A stretch of 64,000 nt of DNA from positions 620,001-684,000 of the forward strand of contig NZ_JAAOIR010000002.1 of NCBI RefSeq assembly GCF_011440375.1, given 5' to 3'. The notes under the pieces were generated by a model that saw only the letters and a program-made list of their open reading frames with translations, did not search any database and was not told where the DNA came from. The stretch is from Halorubellus sp. JP-L1 (GTDB taxonomy: Archaea > Halobacteriota > Halobacteria > Halobacteriales > Natrialbaceae). A program made the translations under genes and the position numbers. Numbering within the stretch: the first letter of the stretch is position 1; every line of letters starts with the position of its first letter. This document shows positions 7,223 to 59,724 of this stretch, in pieces.

Positions 7223-7374
7223 CGACCGGCGTCATGGACGTCGACGCGGTCGCGAGCGAGCTCGCGATCGACCTCGACGCGAAGGAGGTCCAGCAGAAGA
7301 TCGAGCGCCGCGCACCGATGACGTTCGACGAGTTCGTCCACGTCCAGCACGTCATCGCCAGCCGGCAGCGGTAA
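6943..7374 (+). CDS. DUF5791 family protein
   Basis: A 143-residue acidic soluble protein without membrane segments, matching the haloarchaeal DUF5791 family (start MFHDQRHDVDGLTVADLRAE). It is predicted to be helical, with the body built of LRDGVADPDTVVEIACDHLL-type segments and a C-terminal MTFDEFVHVQHVI. I chose ATG 6943 because the family begins MF and a promoter-like box sits 27 nt upstream; a start at 6916 would add nine residues. No function is known. Its last 11 codons and stop are part of a threefold 48-bp tandem duplication running into the intergenic region. Confidence 0.8.
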   Translation: MFHDQRHDVDGLTVADLRAEYAQDLAAVVDEHGVDAVVDATDLDRDVVARVGDADLPADFTLSDAASVLSLRDGVADPDTVVEIACDHLLLGMTTGVMDVDAVASELAIDLDAKEVQQKIERRAPMTFDEFVHVQHVIASRQR

Positions 7375-7472
7375 CGGTCGTCAGTCAGGGGCCAGCACGT
7401 CATCGCCAGCCGGCAGCGGTAACGGTCGTCAGTCAGGGTCCAGCACGTCATCGCCAGCCGGCAGCGGTAACG
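7344..7472. repeat. 48-bp tandem repeat that copies the 3' end and stop codon of the upstream gene
   Basis: Copies start at 7344, 7392 and 7440; the third is truncated after about 33 bp. Each begins ccagcacgtcatcgccagcc and includes the codons for IASRQR plus TAA. The first copy is the genuine gene end, and the other two are downstream non-coding duplicates. Copies are almost identical, pointing to a recent slippage or duplication event. Confidence 0.93.
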
Positions 7473-9809: not shown

Positions 9810-11081
9810 TCAGGCGCCGACGCGCGGGACGAACTGTCCGGTCTCGCGGTAGACGCCGCCGAGGAGGACGACCGCCGCGGCCGCGGGGAGTGCGGCGCAG
9901 GCGAGGTAGATGGGGCCGAATCCGACGACGTCGACGAGCGGGAGCGTGACGATCGGGCCGAAGCCACCGCCGATGTCGCCGAAGACGTTGTTCGTGCCGA
10001 CGGCGCGTCCCATGCGCTCTTCGGGGACGAGGTCGGCGAGGAGCGCCATGAGCGGGCCGCTCGTGCCGCCCTGGCCGACGCCGACGCAGACGCAGGCGAC
10101 GGCGAGCGTCGCGACCGAATCGGCTGCGGCGAGCAGCACGAACCCGATCGCGGTCGCGGCGAGGAAGACGAGGAGAGTCGGGACGCGGGAGCCCCGGCGG
10201 TCGCTGACGTACCCGCCGACGTACATCGAGAGACCCGCGGCGACGACGGTGATACCCATGAAGATGCCCGAGGAGCCCTGTGCGTCGAACCCGAGGACGT
10301 GGAGGGTGTTCTCGTCGAGGAAGAGGACGAGCGTCGCGAACAGCGCGCCGATGTAGACGAAGAGGACGGCGAAGTTCACGAGCCCGACCGTGAGTGCGGG
10401 GAGGCTCGTGTCGACGTCCCAGGGTTTCGCGGACGTCCCCTGGCCGGGATCGACGTGGGTCTCGGGGACGGTCGCGTACGCGACGGCACTCGCGATGAAC
10501 GCGAACGCGGTGGCGACGACGAACGCGGTGACGGTCCCCGCGAGCTCGCTCACGATGCCGCCGACGACGACGCCCGTCGGGAATCCGAACAGGACGCCGC
10601 CGCGGATGAGCCCCATGTTCGCGCCGCGGGAGTCGGCGTCGCTGACGTCGGCGGCGATCGTGTACGCGGTCGCGAACACGAGCGCGCTCCCGACGCCCCA
10701 GAGAATGCGTGCGAGCATGAACCAGCCCTCGGGGAACGGGGCGAGCATCGCGACGACGTACCCGAACGTCGCGAACCCCTGGACGAGCATCCCGACGACG
10801 AACGGCGTCCGCGTCCCGATCCGGTCGACGAGCGCGCCCGCGGGTGCGTTCGCGAACAGCCGCGAGAACCGGTTCGCGCTCAAGATGAGGCCGACGAGGA
10901 ACGGCGAGAACCCGAGGACTTCGCCGAGGTTCGGGAGGATCGGGTAGATGACGCCGCCGCCGAACCCGATGAAGAACGTGCTCGCGATGACGGCGGCGAC
11001 GACGACGCCGTCGCCGGACGCGCCGACGCGAGCGGCGAGTCGACTGACGGCGTCGTCGACGACGCCGCGGAGCGCGCTCAC
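9810..11081 (-). CDS. MFS transporter
   Basis: A protein of about 423 residues with 12 predicted membrane segments in two six-helix halves. The loop after helix 2 holds AGALVDRIGTRTPF, the MFS motif A (GxxxDRxGxR), and a second copy occurs as YVGGYVSDRRGSR between helices 8 and 9. It is probably a drug/H+ antiporter or a multidrug-type exporter; the substrate is not predictable. I prefer the GTG at 11081 (MSALRGVVDDAV) because upstream in-frame sequence is Arg-rich and not haloarchaeal in character. It converges on the DHH gene and diverges from the aldo/keto reductase gene. Confidence 0.85.
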   Translation of the reverse strand: MSALRGVVDDAVSRLAARVGASGDGVVVAAVIASTFFIGFGGGVIYPILPNLGEVLGFSPFLVGLILSANRFSRLFANAPAGALVDRIGTRTPFVVGMLVQGFATFGYVVAMLAPFPEGWFMLARILWGVGSALVFATAYTIAADVSDADSRGANMGLIRGGVLFGFPTGVVVGGIVSELAGTVTAFVVATAFAFIASAVAYATVPETHVDPGQGTSAKPWDVDTSLPALTVGLVNFAVLFVYIGALFATLVLFLDENTLHVLGFDAQGSSGIFMGITVVAAGLSMYVGGYVSDRRGSRVPTLLVFLAATAIGFVLLAAADSVATLAVACVCVGVGQGGTSGPLMALLADLVPEERMGRAVGTNNVFGDIGGGFGPIVTLPLVDVVGFGPIYLACAALPAAAAVVLLGGVYRETGQFVPRVGA

Positions 11082-13909: not shown

Positions 13910-13980
13910 GTTCCGTCATCGCGTCGGCGACCGGCCGTTCCGTCATCGCGTCGGCGACCGGCCGTTCCGTCATCGCGTCG
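13910..13980. repeat. 27-bp tandem repeat, 2.6 copies
   Basis: Copies start at 13910, 13937 and 13964. Each begins gttccgtcatcgcgtcg, and full units continue with gcgaccggcc. They lie between a transporter stop (13877) and the next ATG (14012), immediately upstream of an AT-rich element attatacgac that may be the promoter of the next gene. Confidence 0.93.
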
Positions 13981-44782: not shown

Positions 44783-45550
44783 ATGTCAGAAAACAACGAC
44801 GAGGAACCCATGGCCGACGGCGGTAGTGGCACCGGCATCGTCGCGCCGGACGACGAGACCCCGACGTGGCGCGAGCGCAAGGAGCGCACGCAGGGGCTGT
44901 CCCGGTTGACGTACGAGTACTTCGAGCGCGCGCGTCGCGAGGATCAGGATCTCCGCCAGGAGTCCGATTACGTCGAGCGGGACGTGCTCGCGTTCCCGGC
45001 GTGGCCCCACGAGATGATCCGGAACCTGTCCCTGACGAGTTTCTTCGTCGGGATGATCCTGTTCCTGTCGGCGACGCTCCCGCCGCACATTGGGCCGCCA
45101 GCGAATCCGAATAGTACGCCGGCGGTCATCCTGCCGGACTGGTACCTCTACTGGTCGTTCGGGCTGTTGAAGCTCGGCCCGCTGAACCCCGACCTGTCGC
45201 TACTTGGTGGGTCGAAGCTGCTGGCGGACCGGACGTACGGCGTGATCGCGAACCTCGTCGTCGTCGGCGTCATCGCGATCGTCCCGTTCCTGAACAAGGG
45301 GAGTGCGCGCCGGCCCGTCGAGCAGCCGTTCTGGGCTGCGGTCGGGATGTTCGGCGTGACGTTCGCGTTCACGATCAGTATGCTCTCGATCAAGAACCTG
45401 CTCCCGATGGACTCGAACCTCCTGCTGGACGTGACGTTCCTGCTGCCGATCGTTGCGGGGACGATCACGTACGCGGTGCTTCGGTCGATGCAGGAGGGGT
45501 ACATGTACGACCTGAACCGGCGGTACTATCGGCTGCGGCCGCCGAAGTAA
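44783..45550 (+). CDS. Subunit IV-like (C-terminal cytochrome b) protein of the bc complex
   Basis: A 255-residue protein. A cytoplasmic N-terminal region of about 85 residues precedes four predicted membrane segments, one more than the three of plant subunit IV. The Qo-site motif is PDWYLYW (about 119-125), equivalent to PEWY in bc1 and PEWY/PDWY in b6f. It starts 4 bp after the cytochrome b6-like stop, so cytochrome b is split as in b6f. With the Rieske and halocyanin it completes a quinol:halocyanin oxidoreductase that pumps or translocates protons across the membrane. Confidence 0.93.
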   Translation: MSENNDEEPMADGGSGTGIVAPDDETPTWRERKERTQGLSRLTYEYFERARREDQDLRQESDYVERDVLAFPAWPHEMIRNLSLTSFFVGMILFLSATLPPHIGPPANPNSTPAVILPDWYLYWSFGLLKLGPLNPDLSLLGGSKLLADRTYGVIANLVVVGVIAIVPFLNKGSARRPVEQPFWAAVGMFGVTFAFTISMLSIKNLLPMDSNLLLDVTFLLPIVAGTITYAVLRSMQEGYMYDLNRRYYRLRPPK

Positions 45551-45570
45551 CCCGGTATTTCCTTGTTTCG

Positions 45571-45885
45571 ATGACGGACGATGACTCGGTAGACGGTGGT
45601 TCTCGTGGGTCTCGCGAGGTCGAGGTGCCGATGCGGGTGTACAAGACGGTGACGGTGTTCGCGACGTTGATCGCGATGGTCGCGGTCATCCTCGGGTTCG
45701 TGGCGCTTGACGCGGCGACGAACCGAGCGCAGGCGGCGGCGTCGGACGTGAACGTCGTGCTGGCGCTCGCTGGCCTCGGGAGTATCGTCCTGGGTGCGTT
45801 CGTGTACGCGTTCTCGACGCGCTTTCGCACTCGGGGAATGGGAAAGTCTAAAGACGAATCCGACGAAGGTTCAGGTAATGGCTGA
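45571..45885 (+). CDS. DUF7315-like membrane protein
   Basis: A 104-residue protein. A short acidic N-terminus precedes two membrane helices (about 28-48 and 61-82) and a charged Lys/Asp/Glu tail. The family matches DUF7315, unique to haloarchaeal bc loci. It lies 20 bp after the subunit IV gene and overlaps the next gene by 8 bp, so it is cotranscribed and probably coupled. There are no cofactor ligands. It may be a structural subunit or assembly factor of the complex; unknown function. Confidence 0.76.
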   Translation: MTDDDSVDGGSRGSREVEVPMRVYKTVTVFATLIAMVAVILGFVALDAATNRAQAAASDVNVVLALAGLGSIVLGAFVYAFSTRFRTRGMGKSKDESDEGSGNG

Positions 45886-46135
45886 CGAATTCGCCAAAGG
45901 CACGGCCATCCTCACCGGCGTCGGCCTGGTCTGGATGGTGCTCGCCGGCTGGTACAAGACGCCGTCGTTCGAGGGTGCACAGCTCACGGGCGCGCCACCG
46001 GGTGACCCCGGGATGTGGGGCGAGATGGCGCTCGTCCTGGAGAGCGGGCTGCGCTGGTTCATCATCATCGGCGTCTTGACGTTCTGGATCGTGATTCCGG
46101 CGGCCGAGCAGACGCGCGAGCACTTCGCGAGCTAG
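45878..46135 (+). CDS. DUF7314-like membrane protein
   Basis: An 85-residue protein with two membrane segments (about 8-24 and 57-77) separated by a loop containing YKTPSFEGAQLTGAPPGDPG. ATG 45878 overlaps the preceding stop by 8 bp. It matches DUF7314, found only beside bc genes. The last gene of the operon, it is followed by 489 bp without a gene that hold a 20-bp tandem repeat. No catalytic motif is present; it is a likely small accessory subunit of the respiratory complex. Confidence 0.76.
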   Translation: MADEFAKGTAILTGVGLVWMVLAGWYKTPSFEGAQLTGAPPGDPGMWGEMALVLESGLRWFIIIGVLTFWIVIPAAEQTREHFAS

Positions 46136-46624
46136 CGGTCTCGTTCTCTCCCGTTCTCGACGCCGTGGAGCCGCTGGTGTCCGCGCGCGAGACGGCGATT
46201 GTGTCTCCAGTTGAACGATGGCTGTGGAGGGGAGGTGGTTTCGCGTCGGAGGTGGTTGCGTGAGGCGGTGTGTGGGGCGTCGGGTGTGTCGAACGCGGCG
46301 TGGGACGTCGGGGTTGGCCGGCGTCGAACGCCCTGGCGTGTCCGTGGTCGGGGCGGGGGAAGCTGGGTGGTGACGTGGCCGTGTTTCTCTGAGAGTGGTC
46401 GTGCAGCTTGCGGTGACGTGCGGGGTCGCTATCGTCGACTGGTCGGCCGGTGTCTCGTTCGGGAGGACGGAGTCTCGTTCGGGAGGACGGAGTCTCGTTC
46501 GGGAGGACGGAGTCTCGTTCGGGAGGACGGAGTCTCGTTCGGGAGGACGGAGTCTCGTTCGGGAGGCCGAACGGGGTTGCTAGTGGCGTCGATGGCGGCG
46601 TGAAAACGTGCTGTGAACGGCCGG
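46136..46624. other. Gene-free interval with a 20-bp x 6 tandem array
   Basis: Between two convergent genes, with no credible coding frame. The array at 46451-46570 dominates the second half. The first half (46136-46440) contains moderately GC-rich, non-repetitive DNA in which I saw no gene or clear promoter. Confidence 0.65.
46451..46570. repeat. 20-bp tandem repeat, six copies
   Basis: The unit agtctcgttcgggaggacgg occurs at 46451, 46471, 46491, 46511, 46531 and 46551. The first copy differs in one base and the last ends gggaggccga. Copies two to five are identical. The period is not a multiple of three, so it is not coding, and there are no spacers, so it is not a CRISPR array. Confidence 0.97.
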
Positions 46625-47086
46625 TCAGAGGATCTGGGAGAGGGTGTCGACGAAGAGCGCGAACTCGTTCACGAGCTGGAAGGTGGCGTACGCGAGGACG
46701 AGGAGGGACGCGACGAGTGCGCCCTTCGGTCGGCGGACGTGGTCGTCCTTGCGGATGTCGACGGCGCGGGTCTCGAACTCGAAGAAGTCCGTGAGGAACA
46801 GTCCGAGGACGAGCATGGTGAGGACGACGCCGCCGTGGGGGGCGTACGTGGCGTAGTAGAACGTCGTGAGGATGAGTGCAATCGTGGTCGCGGCGTGCAG
46901 TGGGTGCCTGGACGCGGTCGTTGCGTCCTCGTCGTCGGCTTCGTTGACGTTACGCTTGTAGGCGAGGATGCGGGTCGCCATGTTCGCGAGCACGAGCACG
47001 ACCAGCAGGTACTTGAAGAGGACGACGCCGAGGACCTCGGTGGTGAGGATGGCGTCGAGGGGTCCGAACATCGTCGCTGGGTCCAT
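46625..47086 (-). CDS. DUF7313-like membrane protein
   Basis: A 153-residue protein with four membrane segments (about 18-41, 66-85, 88-108 and 125-147). The loop FFEFETRAVDIRKDDHVRRP lies on the cytoplasmic side. It matches DUF7313, the next family in the numbered series from this locus, so it belongs to the bc neighbourhood even though it is on the opposite strand and convergent with the operon. It has a promoter-like cactaatgg about 27 nt upstream. The family has no function; a role linked to respiration or membrane assembly is inferred from conservation of position. Confidence 0.76.
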   Translation of the reverse strand: MDPATMFGPLDAILTTEVLGVVLFKYLLVVLVLANMATRILAYKRNVNEADDEDATTASRHPLHAATTIALILTTFYYATYAPHGGVVLTMLVLGLFLTDFFEFETRAVDIRKDDHVRRPKGALVASLLVLAYATFQLVNEFALFVDTLSQIL

Positions 47087-47110
47087 AGGTGGACCTGTGT
47101 GGACGAGCCA

Positions 47111-47893
47111 TTAGTGTTTTTCCAATGCGTGCGGCCACGGCCCGGTGCTCTGGGGGGTGATCGCGAGCGTGAGCGGGTCGTCCGTGGTGACGTCGACGGT
47201 CGCTTCGCGCCCGACGGTGGTGACGTGGCGGTCGTCGATGCGGAGGGAGACGTCGCCTTCGTCGCGTTCGACGGTGAGGGAGACGTCGTCGTCGGGGACG
47301 ATCCAGTCGTCGGCGTTCGTGGCGAACGGCGCGATCGGGACGGCTGCGAGGACGCCCGTGTGTGGGGCGAGGACGTGGCTGCCGGCGGCGCGCGCGTATC
47401 CCTGTGATCCGACGGGGGTGGCGAGGACGACGCCGTCGGCGCGGAACCGGCCGACGATGCGGTCGGTCGCGGTGAGCGTGTACTCGCTGATGCGTGCGGG
47501 TTCGCTCGTGACGAGGGTGACGTCGGCGAGTGCGCGAACCGGCTCGATGGTCTCGGTGGCGACGGCGAGCGTCGTCCGGGTCGTGGTCTCGTAGGTGTCG
47601 GCGACGAGGGCGGCGATGGCGGCGGCGGCGTCCCGGTGGGGGACGCCGTGCGTGCCGTGGTCGGTGTCGATGGGGAGGACGGGCGCGTCGACGCGGGCGC
47701 GAACGCACTCGTAGAGCGAGCGTTCGCCGCGGGCGACGACGGCGTCGACGTCGGCGGTGGCGAGCGCGCGGGCGTCGTCGACGAGCGCGGTGGCGTCGTC
47801 GACGGCGGCGGCGAGCGCGCTGACGTCGGGCGCGGTGGCGTCGGCGACGTCGACGATGCCGACGACCGTGGACGCCCTCTTGGAGTCGTCCAT
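47111..47893 (-). CDS. ATP-NAD kinase-like protein lacking the GGDG motif
   Basis: A 260-residue protein of NAD kinase/diacylglycerol kinase fold. The C-terminal half has the NAD kinase signature DGVVLATPVGSQGYARAAGS (about 153-172), corresponding to the DG(x)4TPTGSTAY block, and the downstream beta-sandwich. The N-terminal GGDGT loop that binds ATP in true NAD kinases is absent; the equivalent segment reads VVARGERSLYECVRA. It therefore either uses a modified phosphate site or is a non-catalytic NAD(P)-binding relative. It has a good leaderless promoter. A separate canonical NAD kinase would be expected elsewhere in the genome. Confidence 0.77.
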   Translation of the reverse strand: MDDSKRASTVVGIVDVADATAPDVSALAAAVDDATALVDDARALATADVDAVVARGERSLYECVRARVDAPVLPIDTDHGTHGVPHRDAAAAIAALVADTYETTTRTTLAVATETIEPVRALADVTLVTSEPARISEYTLTATDRIVGRFRADGVVLATPVGSQGYARAAGSHVLAPHTGVLAAVPIAPFATNADDWIVPDDDVSLTVERDEGDVSLRIDDRHVTTVGREATVDVTTDDPLTLAITPQSTGPWPHALEKH

Positions 47894-58350: not shown

Positions 58351-59724
58351 ATGGGGAATAAATACACTGGCGTGCTCGTGGCGTTCGTCGCCGTTCTCGC
58401 CGTCGCCGGTCCGGCGGTCGGCGCGGTCGGTGCGGCCAGCGGGGCCGGCGCCGCGGCGGGGGCGACGGACGCGACGTCGGTCGACCTCGCGTTGTCGGTG
58501 GAGACGGCGACGTCGTCCGTCGACCCTGGCGAGACCGTGACCGTCACATTCACCGTCGGGAACGCCGGCGGGAGCCCGGCGGCGAACGCGTCGCTCCAGC
58601 CGCGGTTCCCGCCGTCGTGGTCAGTCGAGAGTCACGAGGACGACGGCGCGGAGTTCGCCGAGCGCGGCGTCGGCTGGCGGTTCGCGGAACTCTCGAGCGG
58701 CGAGCAGCGGACGGTGTCGGTGACGATGTTGGTTCCCGCGGACTGGGACGGAGGCGACTTCACGCTCCGATCGCAGGTCGGTGACCGCGAACGCAACACC
58801 GCGAGCGCGGAGACGACCGTCGTCGTCGGCGACGGTGGCGACGGTGGAGATGGTGGCGACGGTGAAGACGGCGGTGGCGACGACGACGGCCTCGACGGCG
58901 GAGACGGCAGTGACGACGGTGGCGATGAGTCGACGGACGGTAGCGACGATGGATCGAAGGACGGCAGCGATAGCGAAGACGACTCCACCATCGAAGCTCC
59001 CGACGACGTCTCCGAGGATGGCTCGAACGATGATTCGACGGACGAGAACTCGAAGACGGACGGGTCCGAAACTGATGGCTCCGCGTCGGACGGGTCGGCG
59101 GACGATGGCGACGACGGGGGGCTGTCCAGCGGGTCCGGCGACGGGTCGAGCGATGACGCATCGAACGACGATGAGTCGAAGACGGACGGGTCGGAGAAGG
59201 ATGAGTCGAAGACGGACGGGTCGGAGAAGGATGAGTCGAAGACGGATGGGTCGGAGAAGGATGAGTCGAAGACGGATGGGTCGGAGAAGGATGAGTCGAA
59301 GACGGATGGGTCGGAGAAGGATGAGTCGAAGACGGATGGGTCGGAGAAGGATGAGTCGAAGACGGACGGCTCGAAGGACGATGGGTCGACGCAGTCTGGG
59401 TCGGACGACGGAACGTCGGCTGATGAAGCGGGCGACTCGAGCGGTGACGCGTCGAGCGGTGACGAATCGATCGAGGGTGGGTCGTACAGTGACGTAGCCG
59501 ACGGAACCCCAGAGGGGGCGTCCGGCGGTGATTCGACGGCGTCCGAACCGGACGTGAACGAGGTGCTCGGCGTCGGTGGGAACGACGAGACCGTCGACCT
59601 GCTGGCGCCGCTGGACTCGCTCTCGGCGCCCGTCGAGGACCCGCGGCGCCAGCACTTCGACGGCGTGTTCAGCCTGTTCTCCGTCGGGTCGATCGGCGTC
59701 CTCCTCGCACGACGGTTCCAGTGA
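58351..59724 (+). CDS. Secreted surface protein with CARDB-like domain and DESKTDGSEK repeats
   Basis: A 457-residue protein. A Sec-type signal peptide (about 1-30, VLVAFVAVLAVAGPAVGAVG) precedes a beta-sandwich CARDB/NEW3-like domain (about 40-155, SSVDPGETVTVTFTVGNAGG and SVTMLVPADWDGGDFTLR). Then comes a very acidic Gly/Asp/Ser-rich region (160-275) and a tandem decapeptide DESKTDGSEK block (about 274-343). A short hydrophobic segment near the end (GVFSLFSVGSIGVLLARRFQ) with a following Arg-Arg may anchor the protein. It is likely cell-surface attached, with a long disordered spacer like glycosylated S-layer-type stalks; Ser/Thr could carry O-glycans. There is no identifiable ligand or enzyme domain. 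Confidence 0.82.
   Translation: MGNKYTGVLVAFVAVLAVAGPAVGAVGAASGAGAAAGATDATSVDLALSVETATSSVDPGETVTVTFTVGNAGGSPAANASLQPRFPPSWSVESHEDDGAEFAERGVGWRFAELSSGEQRTVSVTMLVPADWDGGDFTLRSQVGDRERNTASAETTVVVGDGGDGGDGGDGEDGGGDDDGLDGGDGSDDGGDESTDGSDDGSKDGSDSEDDSTIEAPDDVSEDGSNDDSTDENSKTDGSETDGSASDGSADDGDDGGLSSGSGDGSSDDASNDDESKTDGSEKDESKTDGSEKDESKTDGSEKDESKTDGSEKDESKTDGSEKDESKTDGSEKDESKTDGSKDDGSTQSGSDDGTSADEAGDSSGDASSGDESIEGGSYSDVADGTPEGASGGDSTASEPDVNEVLGVGGNDETVDLLAPLDSLSAPVEDPRRQHFDGVFSLFSVGSIGVLLARRFQ
59171..59380. repeat. 30-bp in-frame tandem repeat, seven copies
   Basis: Units start at 59171 and every 30 bp to 59351, each beginning atgagtcgaagacgga(c/t)ggg. Most are nearly identical, and the last reads ggctcgaaggacg at its end. 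They encode DESKTDGSEK repeats. Confidence 0.97.

Follow-up and report, generated by a model that had tools for sequence, protein, structure and literature searches.

A tandem array of 20-bp units lies just beyond the cytochrome bc operon of Halorubellus sp. JP-L1, and the question it raises is whether such a regular structure has a function or is a by-product of DNA replication. A preliminary description of the locus left three options: a protein-binding array, a phased structural element or a hypervariable minisatellite. Here, the array is read, with a probability of about 0.87, as a recent, lineage-specific minisatellite that originated by tandem duplication and that, as we infer, is neutral. 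Positions refer to the window, that is, the whole stretch of 64,000 nucleotides that was analysed. The features of the locus are the following.

45878..46135, + strand: DUF7314 gene, the last of the cytochrome bc operon (PF23996, 2.3e-33)
46136..46624, no strand: convergent intergenic gap of 489 bp, bounded by the stop codons of the DUF7314 and DUF7313 genes
46451..46570, no strand: tandem array of six head-to-tail 20-bp copies, from repeat finding and copy-by-copy comparison
46556..46573, no strand: hairpin CGTTCGG-GAGG-CCGAACG with a 7-bp stem, from the sequence and in both centroid folds
46625..47086, - strand: DUF7313 gene, the convergent neighbour (PF23995, 4.2e-48)

Structure of the array and of its gap

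The array is present in the gap, which holds no called gene, and TRF places it at 46448-46566 with a period of 20, 5.9 copies, 98% match and a score of 231. When the gap was shuffled 500 times with its dinucleotides preserved, the best scores averaged 28 and the highest was 81, so the array is far above chance. The preliminary description spoke of six perfect-period repeats. The period is indeed perfect, but only four of the six copies are identical: copies 2-5 are exactly AGTCTCGTTCGGGAGGACGG, whereas copy 1 carries one mismatch (its first base) and copy 6 carries two. Similarity to the unit ends on either flank. The location after the bc operon was also confirmed, with Pfam matches to the N- and C-terminal parts of cytochrome b and to DUF7318, DUF7315 and DUF7314 upstream. 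Both flanking genes have their 3' ends towards the array, which is not at a promoter, and the genes beyond encode an NAD-kinase-like protein and an M28 peptidase.

It had been suggested that a period near two helical turns would present all copies on one face of the DNA. At 10.5 bp per turn, each 20-bp copy steps back by about 34 degrees (about 170 over six), so the copies would leave a common face. Among noncoding arrays of the genome sample described below, 19/78 have periods within 1 bp of a multiple of 10 (30% expected) and 13/78 near a multiple of 10.5 (20% expected), which shows no preference for either spacing; a single array cannot by itself decide phasing.

Concerning composition, the + strand of the gap is G-rich and A-poor, a bias not confined to the array (G 0.45, C 0.23, A 0.10-0.11, T 0.22). 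The corresponding gap in Halorubellus salinus GX3, the sister genome from the same genus, is similarly skewed (G 0.42, A 0.10) despite having no sequence conservation. In the sampled part of the JP-L1 genome, an absolute GC skew of at least 0.30 was found in 5 of the 237 gaps of at least 150 bp, the focal gap among them. G-richness on one strand in both species could mean that the gap is transcribed or otherwise constrained.

Conservation of the locus and competing explanations

The unit is unique to this place: elsewhere in the JP-L1 genome it has a single match, with 3 mismatches. The search of other genomes that the preliminary description had proposed gave no match to the array in the 124 other genomes of the family. 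Plasmid records searched with the gap and viral contigs searched with the unit gave no match either. The convergent DUF7313/DUF7314 pair is itself kept at 18 of 28 DUF7313 loci, with a measurable gap (JP-L1 included), and none of the other 17 carries the array. H. salinus retains the gene pair, with coding flanks 86-88% identical, and the focal array is missing from its gap of 558 bp. The local alignment score between the two gaps was 31, at chance level when compared with 100 shuffles (mean 25, maximum 39), and the gap of H. salinus carries tandems of its own (25 bp x 2.3 and 24 bp x 2.5).

A head-to-tail unit within the range of about 10-100 bp (20 bp x 5.9, 98% match) that is locus-specific and missing at the orthologous place in relatives is what defines a minisatellite, and of the three original options it is the minisatellite, putatively variable in copy number, that the data support. 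In its short-unit, head-to-tail form the array resembles the prokaryotic minisatellites or VNTRs treated in the available text of a satellite survey (PMC6749651). In the gap between the converging genes, which would evolve fast and free of constraint, about 20 bp would have been duplicated in tandem, by slipped-strand synthesis or flap re-ligation in replication, and more slippage or unequal recombination would have brought the array to about six copies. The identity of the inner copies may reflect recent expansion or homogenisation of the copies. Yeast flap-endonuclease mutants build up such duplications. The replicative polymerases of one archaeon slip in vitro on a hairpin template with short direct repeats, according to the portion of PMC4134008 at hand, and in Haloquadratum walsbyi, as far as the accessible part of PMC3119063 goes, short direct repeats mediate deletions that change chromosome length; this is a haloarchaeal parallel, although the changes there are deletions and the focal array is an expansion. 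We infer the duplication mechanism and the copy-number instability of the array as well as its neutrality. Three observations count against a young minisatellite: its copy number is the highest among the noncoding arrays sampled, its four inner copies are identical, and one strand of the gap is rich in G in both species.

That last feature, together with the 7-bp hairpin in the last copy, would suit a structured noncoding RNA, a 3' UTR or a terminator element with functional repeats, which we consider quite improbable. The hairpin arises solely from the diverged last copy and the right flank, and the array region folds no better than shuffled sequence (z -0.59 and +1.88). Moreover, the Rfam search of 45500-47200 matched no family up to E 1, the terminator and promoter scan, which models bacterial types only, gave no terminator-like site in the region, and the sequence is not conserved.

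The exact head-to-tail copies close to an energy-metabolism operon might instead be clustered sites at which a protein regulating the bc operon or DUF7313 binds the DNA. This protein-binding option is very improbable and was rejected, as the unit is neither conserved in the sister or the family nor found at other genes, with no dispersed copy in the genome beyond the 3-mismatch hit. Furthermore, the array faces the gene ends of both neighbours and not a promoter, and the 20-bp unit is non-palindromic (best stem 3 bp). REP/BIME palindromes were discarded for the array as well, given this short stem and the lack of dispersed copies.

The genome is a draft in 5 contigs, and a false duplication in the assembly might be suspected. 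However, the array is short (120 bp), its edge copies differ from the core copies, and similar arrays are plentiful in the independently assembled sister genome, which makes an artefact highly improbable. Finally, iterons for replication or partition are direct repeats of similar length, about 20 bp, but these or a CRISPR remnant have a negligible probability: the copies have no intervening unique spacers, no rep gene is present among nine scanned neighbouring proteins, and the genome-wide initiator search with Cdc6_C gave five matches, on contigs C1, C3, C4 and C5, whereas C2, the contig of the window, had none. No sequence-specific function of the array is detectable.

Tandem arrays in the genome and in the sister species

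Of the 3.76 Mb of the genome, 744 kb, among them the window, were sampled for arrays with a TRF score of at least 50, with genes called by a home-made codon-score script and not by a standard program (the script missed DUF7315 in the window). The sample holds 82 noncoding arrays. The focal array is the 11th by score, and no other with a period of at least 10 has as many copies (5.9, followed by 5.6 and 5.5). Periods divisible by three make up 250/259 in coding arrays versus 36/81 in noncoding ones, as is expected from unselected duplication filtered by the reading frame. The top-scoring array of the window, a 30-bp x 7.3 repeat at 59170-59389, lies within a called gene. In the available text of the satellite survey, satellites are few in most archaea and the repeat lengths of Halobacteria are mainly multiples of three, that is, within genes (PMC6749651); in contrast, noncoding arrays not bound to three are common here.

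These arrays turn over rapidly. In the collinear 64 kb of H. salinus, none of the six noncoding arrays of the window is present in the corresponding gap, and none of the seven placed arrays of the sister is present in the window, a count that omits an eighth sister array (61775, flank unassigned) and a ninth beyond the aligned part. Array turnover thus outpaces the divergence of the two species.

Two other arrays of the window give some detail. The noncoding array at 7344-7472 has 2.7 copies in all of a unit that corresponds to the upstream gene's 3' end, stop codon included. The stretch that forms this unit is single-copy in the sister, so a local tandem duplication is directly visible at another gap. 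For the array at 13910-13980, the sister has one related stretch, which precedes a common TATA-like sequence (by eye).

Likewise, the tandem repeats of Borgs are described, in the part of PMC9879509 available, as recent, independently arisen, fast-changing and near-perfect arrays, some of which start inside gene ends, a situation comparable to the array at 7344-7472. Unlike the A-enriched units of Borgs, those studied here are GC-rich and belong to a haloarchaeal chromosome. Taken alone, the focal array matters little, beyond being a candidate marker for strain typing. The part worth keeping is the setting, a haloarchaeal genus rich in noncoding tandem arrays with fast turnover.

Array density and the NucS/EndoMS endonuclease

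The density of noncoding arrays was compared in an exploratory way, with one pipeline and 24 genomes, in 19 of which 5.6-21 kb of noncoding DNA was sampled. Per 10 kb of noncoding DNA, JP-L1 (G000) has 6.67 arrays and H. salinus (G001) has 6.48, and the other 22 genomes pooled have 52 arrays in 338.6 kb. Four of these (G011, G040, G043 and G060) nearly match Halorubellus (5.6-6.4 per 10 kb), and the remainder range from 0 to 4.8.

Three repair families were surveyed in 61 genomes, with MutS_V found in 61/61, NucS_C in 49/61 and IMS in 56/61. The lead on NucS emerged from looking at these three. The six lowest best-NucS scores (none, 24, 80, 94, 96 and 102 bits) belong to the six densest of the 24 genomes, and the 18 genomes with at least 104.6 bits have 0 to 4.8 arrays per 10 kb, a score cut picked after inspection of the data. 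Pooled, the low-NucS group has 138 arrays in 212.1 kb versus 27 in 297.1 kb in the high-NucS group, and for strong arrays (score of at least 100 and at least 2.5 copies) the counts are 50 versus 1. Per noncoding length, Halorubellus has about seven times as many noncoding arrays as the 18 relatives whose NucS match is strong. The Mann-Whitney test of density by NucS group gave p 1.5e-5 for all genomes and 2.7e-4 without Halorubellus, values that ignore relatedness and the three-family search. GC content is a weaker correlate of density (Spearman 0.37, p 0.07). The other two families were dropped as separators of array-rich and array-poor genomes: MutS_V count correlated poorly with array density (Spearman -0.28, p 0.19), and the DinB-type IMS domain is present in 24/24.

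The NucS/EndoMS genes of the genus lie at the following positions.

L186:1084-1872, strand not given: NucS/EndoMS of JP-L1
L187:1507-2805, strand not given: NucS/EndoMS of H. salinus

Among 12 aligned proteins, the Asn-Trp pair, which grips the flipped mismatched base, is kept in all ten from outside the genus, and both Halorubellus proteins have His-Pro, which aligns opposite the Asn-Trp of the solved EndoMS 5gke (E 5.1e-33). Tyr41, Asn76 and Trp77 are given as the residues that bind the mismatched base in the consulted portions of PMC7343888 and PMC6829318, and Asp165, Glu179 and Lys181 as catalytic in that of PMC7343888. Judging from the alignment, the Halorubellus enzyme seems to retain the catalytic Asp-Glu-Lys positions. 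A second NucS_C-type protein of the genus (L191, L193) is found also in G036, G052 and G057, so it is not a genus-specific replacement.

The array richness of the genome may be linked to a possible weakening of this DNA-repair enzyme. The broader proposal, in which NucS restrains tandem duplication in haloarchaea and the focal array is a symptom of lineage-wide noncoding duplication after the weakening or loss of NucS, is tentative and rather unlikely. G040 and G043, array-rich by the looser measure, retain Asn-Trp (the G043 assembly is 81% complete), and G040 has no strong array at all. G052, G025 and G006 are of intermediate density despite high NucS scores. The small size of the noncoding samples also weighs against the proposal. 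In addition, G011 and G060 have no good NucS match and also lack a second high-scoring MutS among the matches listed, so the effects of NucS and MutS are entangled there. The literature points both ways. The accessible text of PMC8228993 states that NucS does not correct short indels and that its loss leaves those of mycobacteria unraised, which counts against the link, whereas cleavage of flapped DNA by NucS, mentioned in the portion of PMC7343888 at hand, counts for it. In the parts of the literature available to our search, nothing was found that gives NucS a part in tandem duplication. If the link is true, the idea that a repair enzyme keeps tandem duplication in check could be tested on the natural variation among haloarchaea.

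Aside from the arrays, a hairpin family of the form GGAA-ACGGCGGCC-TGGC-GGCCGCCGT-AYGCT is dispersed in the genus, frequently as tandem copies with a spacing of about 45-70 bp, and shows matched changes on both sides of the stem. Examples are located as follows.

JP-L1: L045:3387-3534; L060:1732-1841 and 10759-10899; L062:18586-18747; L065:16946-17033; L070:8673-8847
H. salinus: L077, L080 and L085

With up to two mismatches, the pattern has 77 matches in JP-L1 and 58 in H. salinus (being a palindrome, it is partly counted on both strands). Among 35 other genomes, four have one match each and 31 have none. The family is REP/BIME-like and apparently genus-specific. In the two samples, all 25 perfect hairpins with a 9-bp stem and a 4-nt loop that are preceded by AA are noncoding, and 23 of them belong by eye to this GGAA family.
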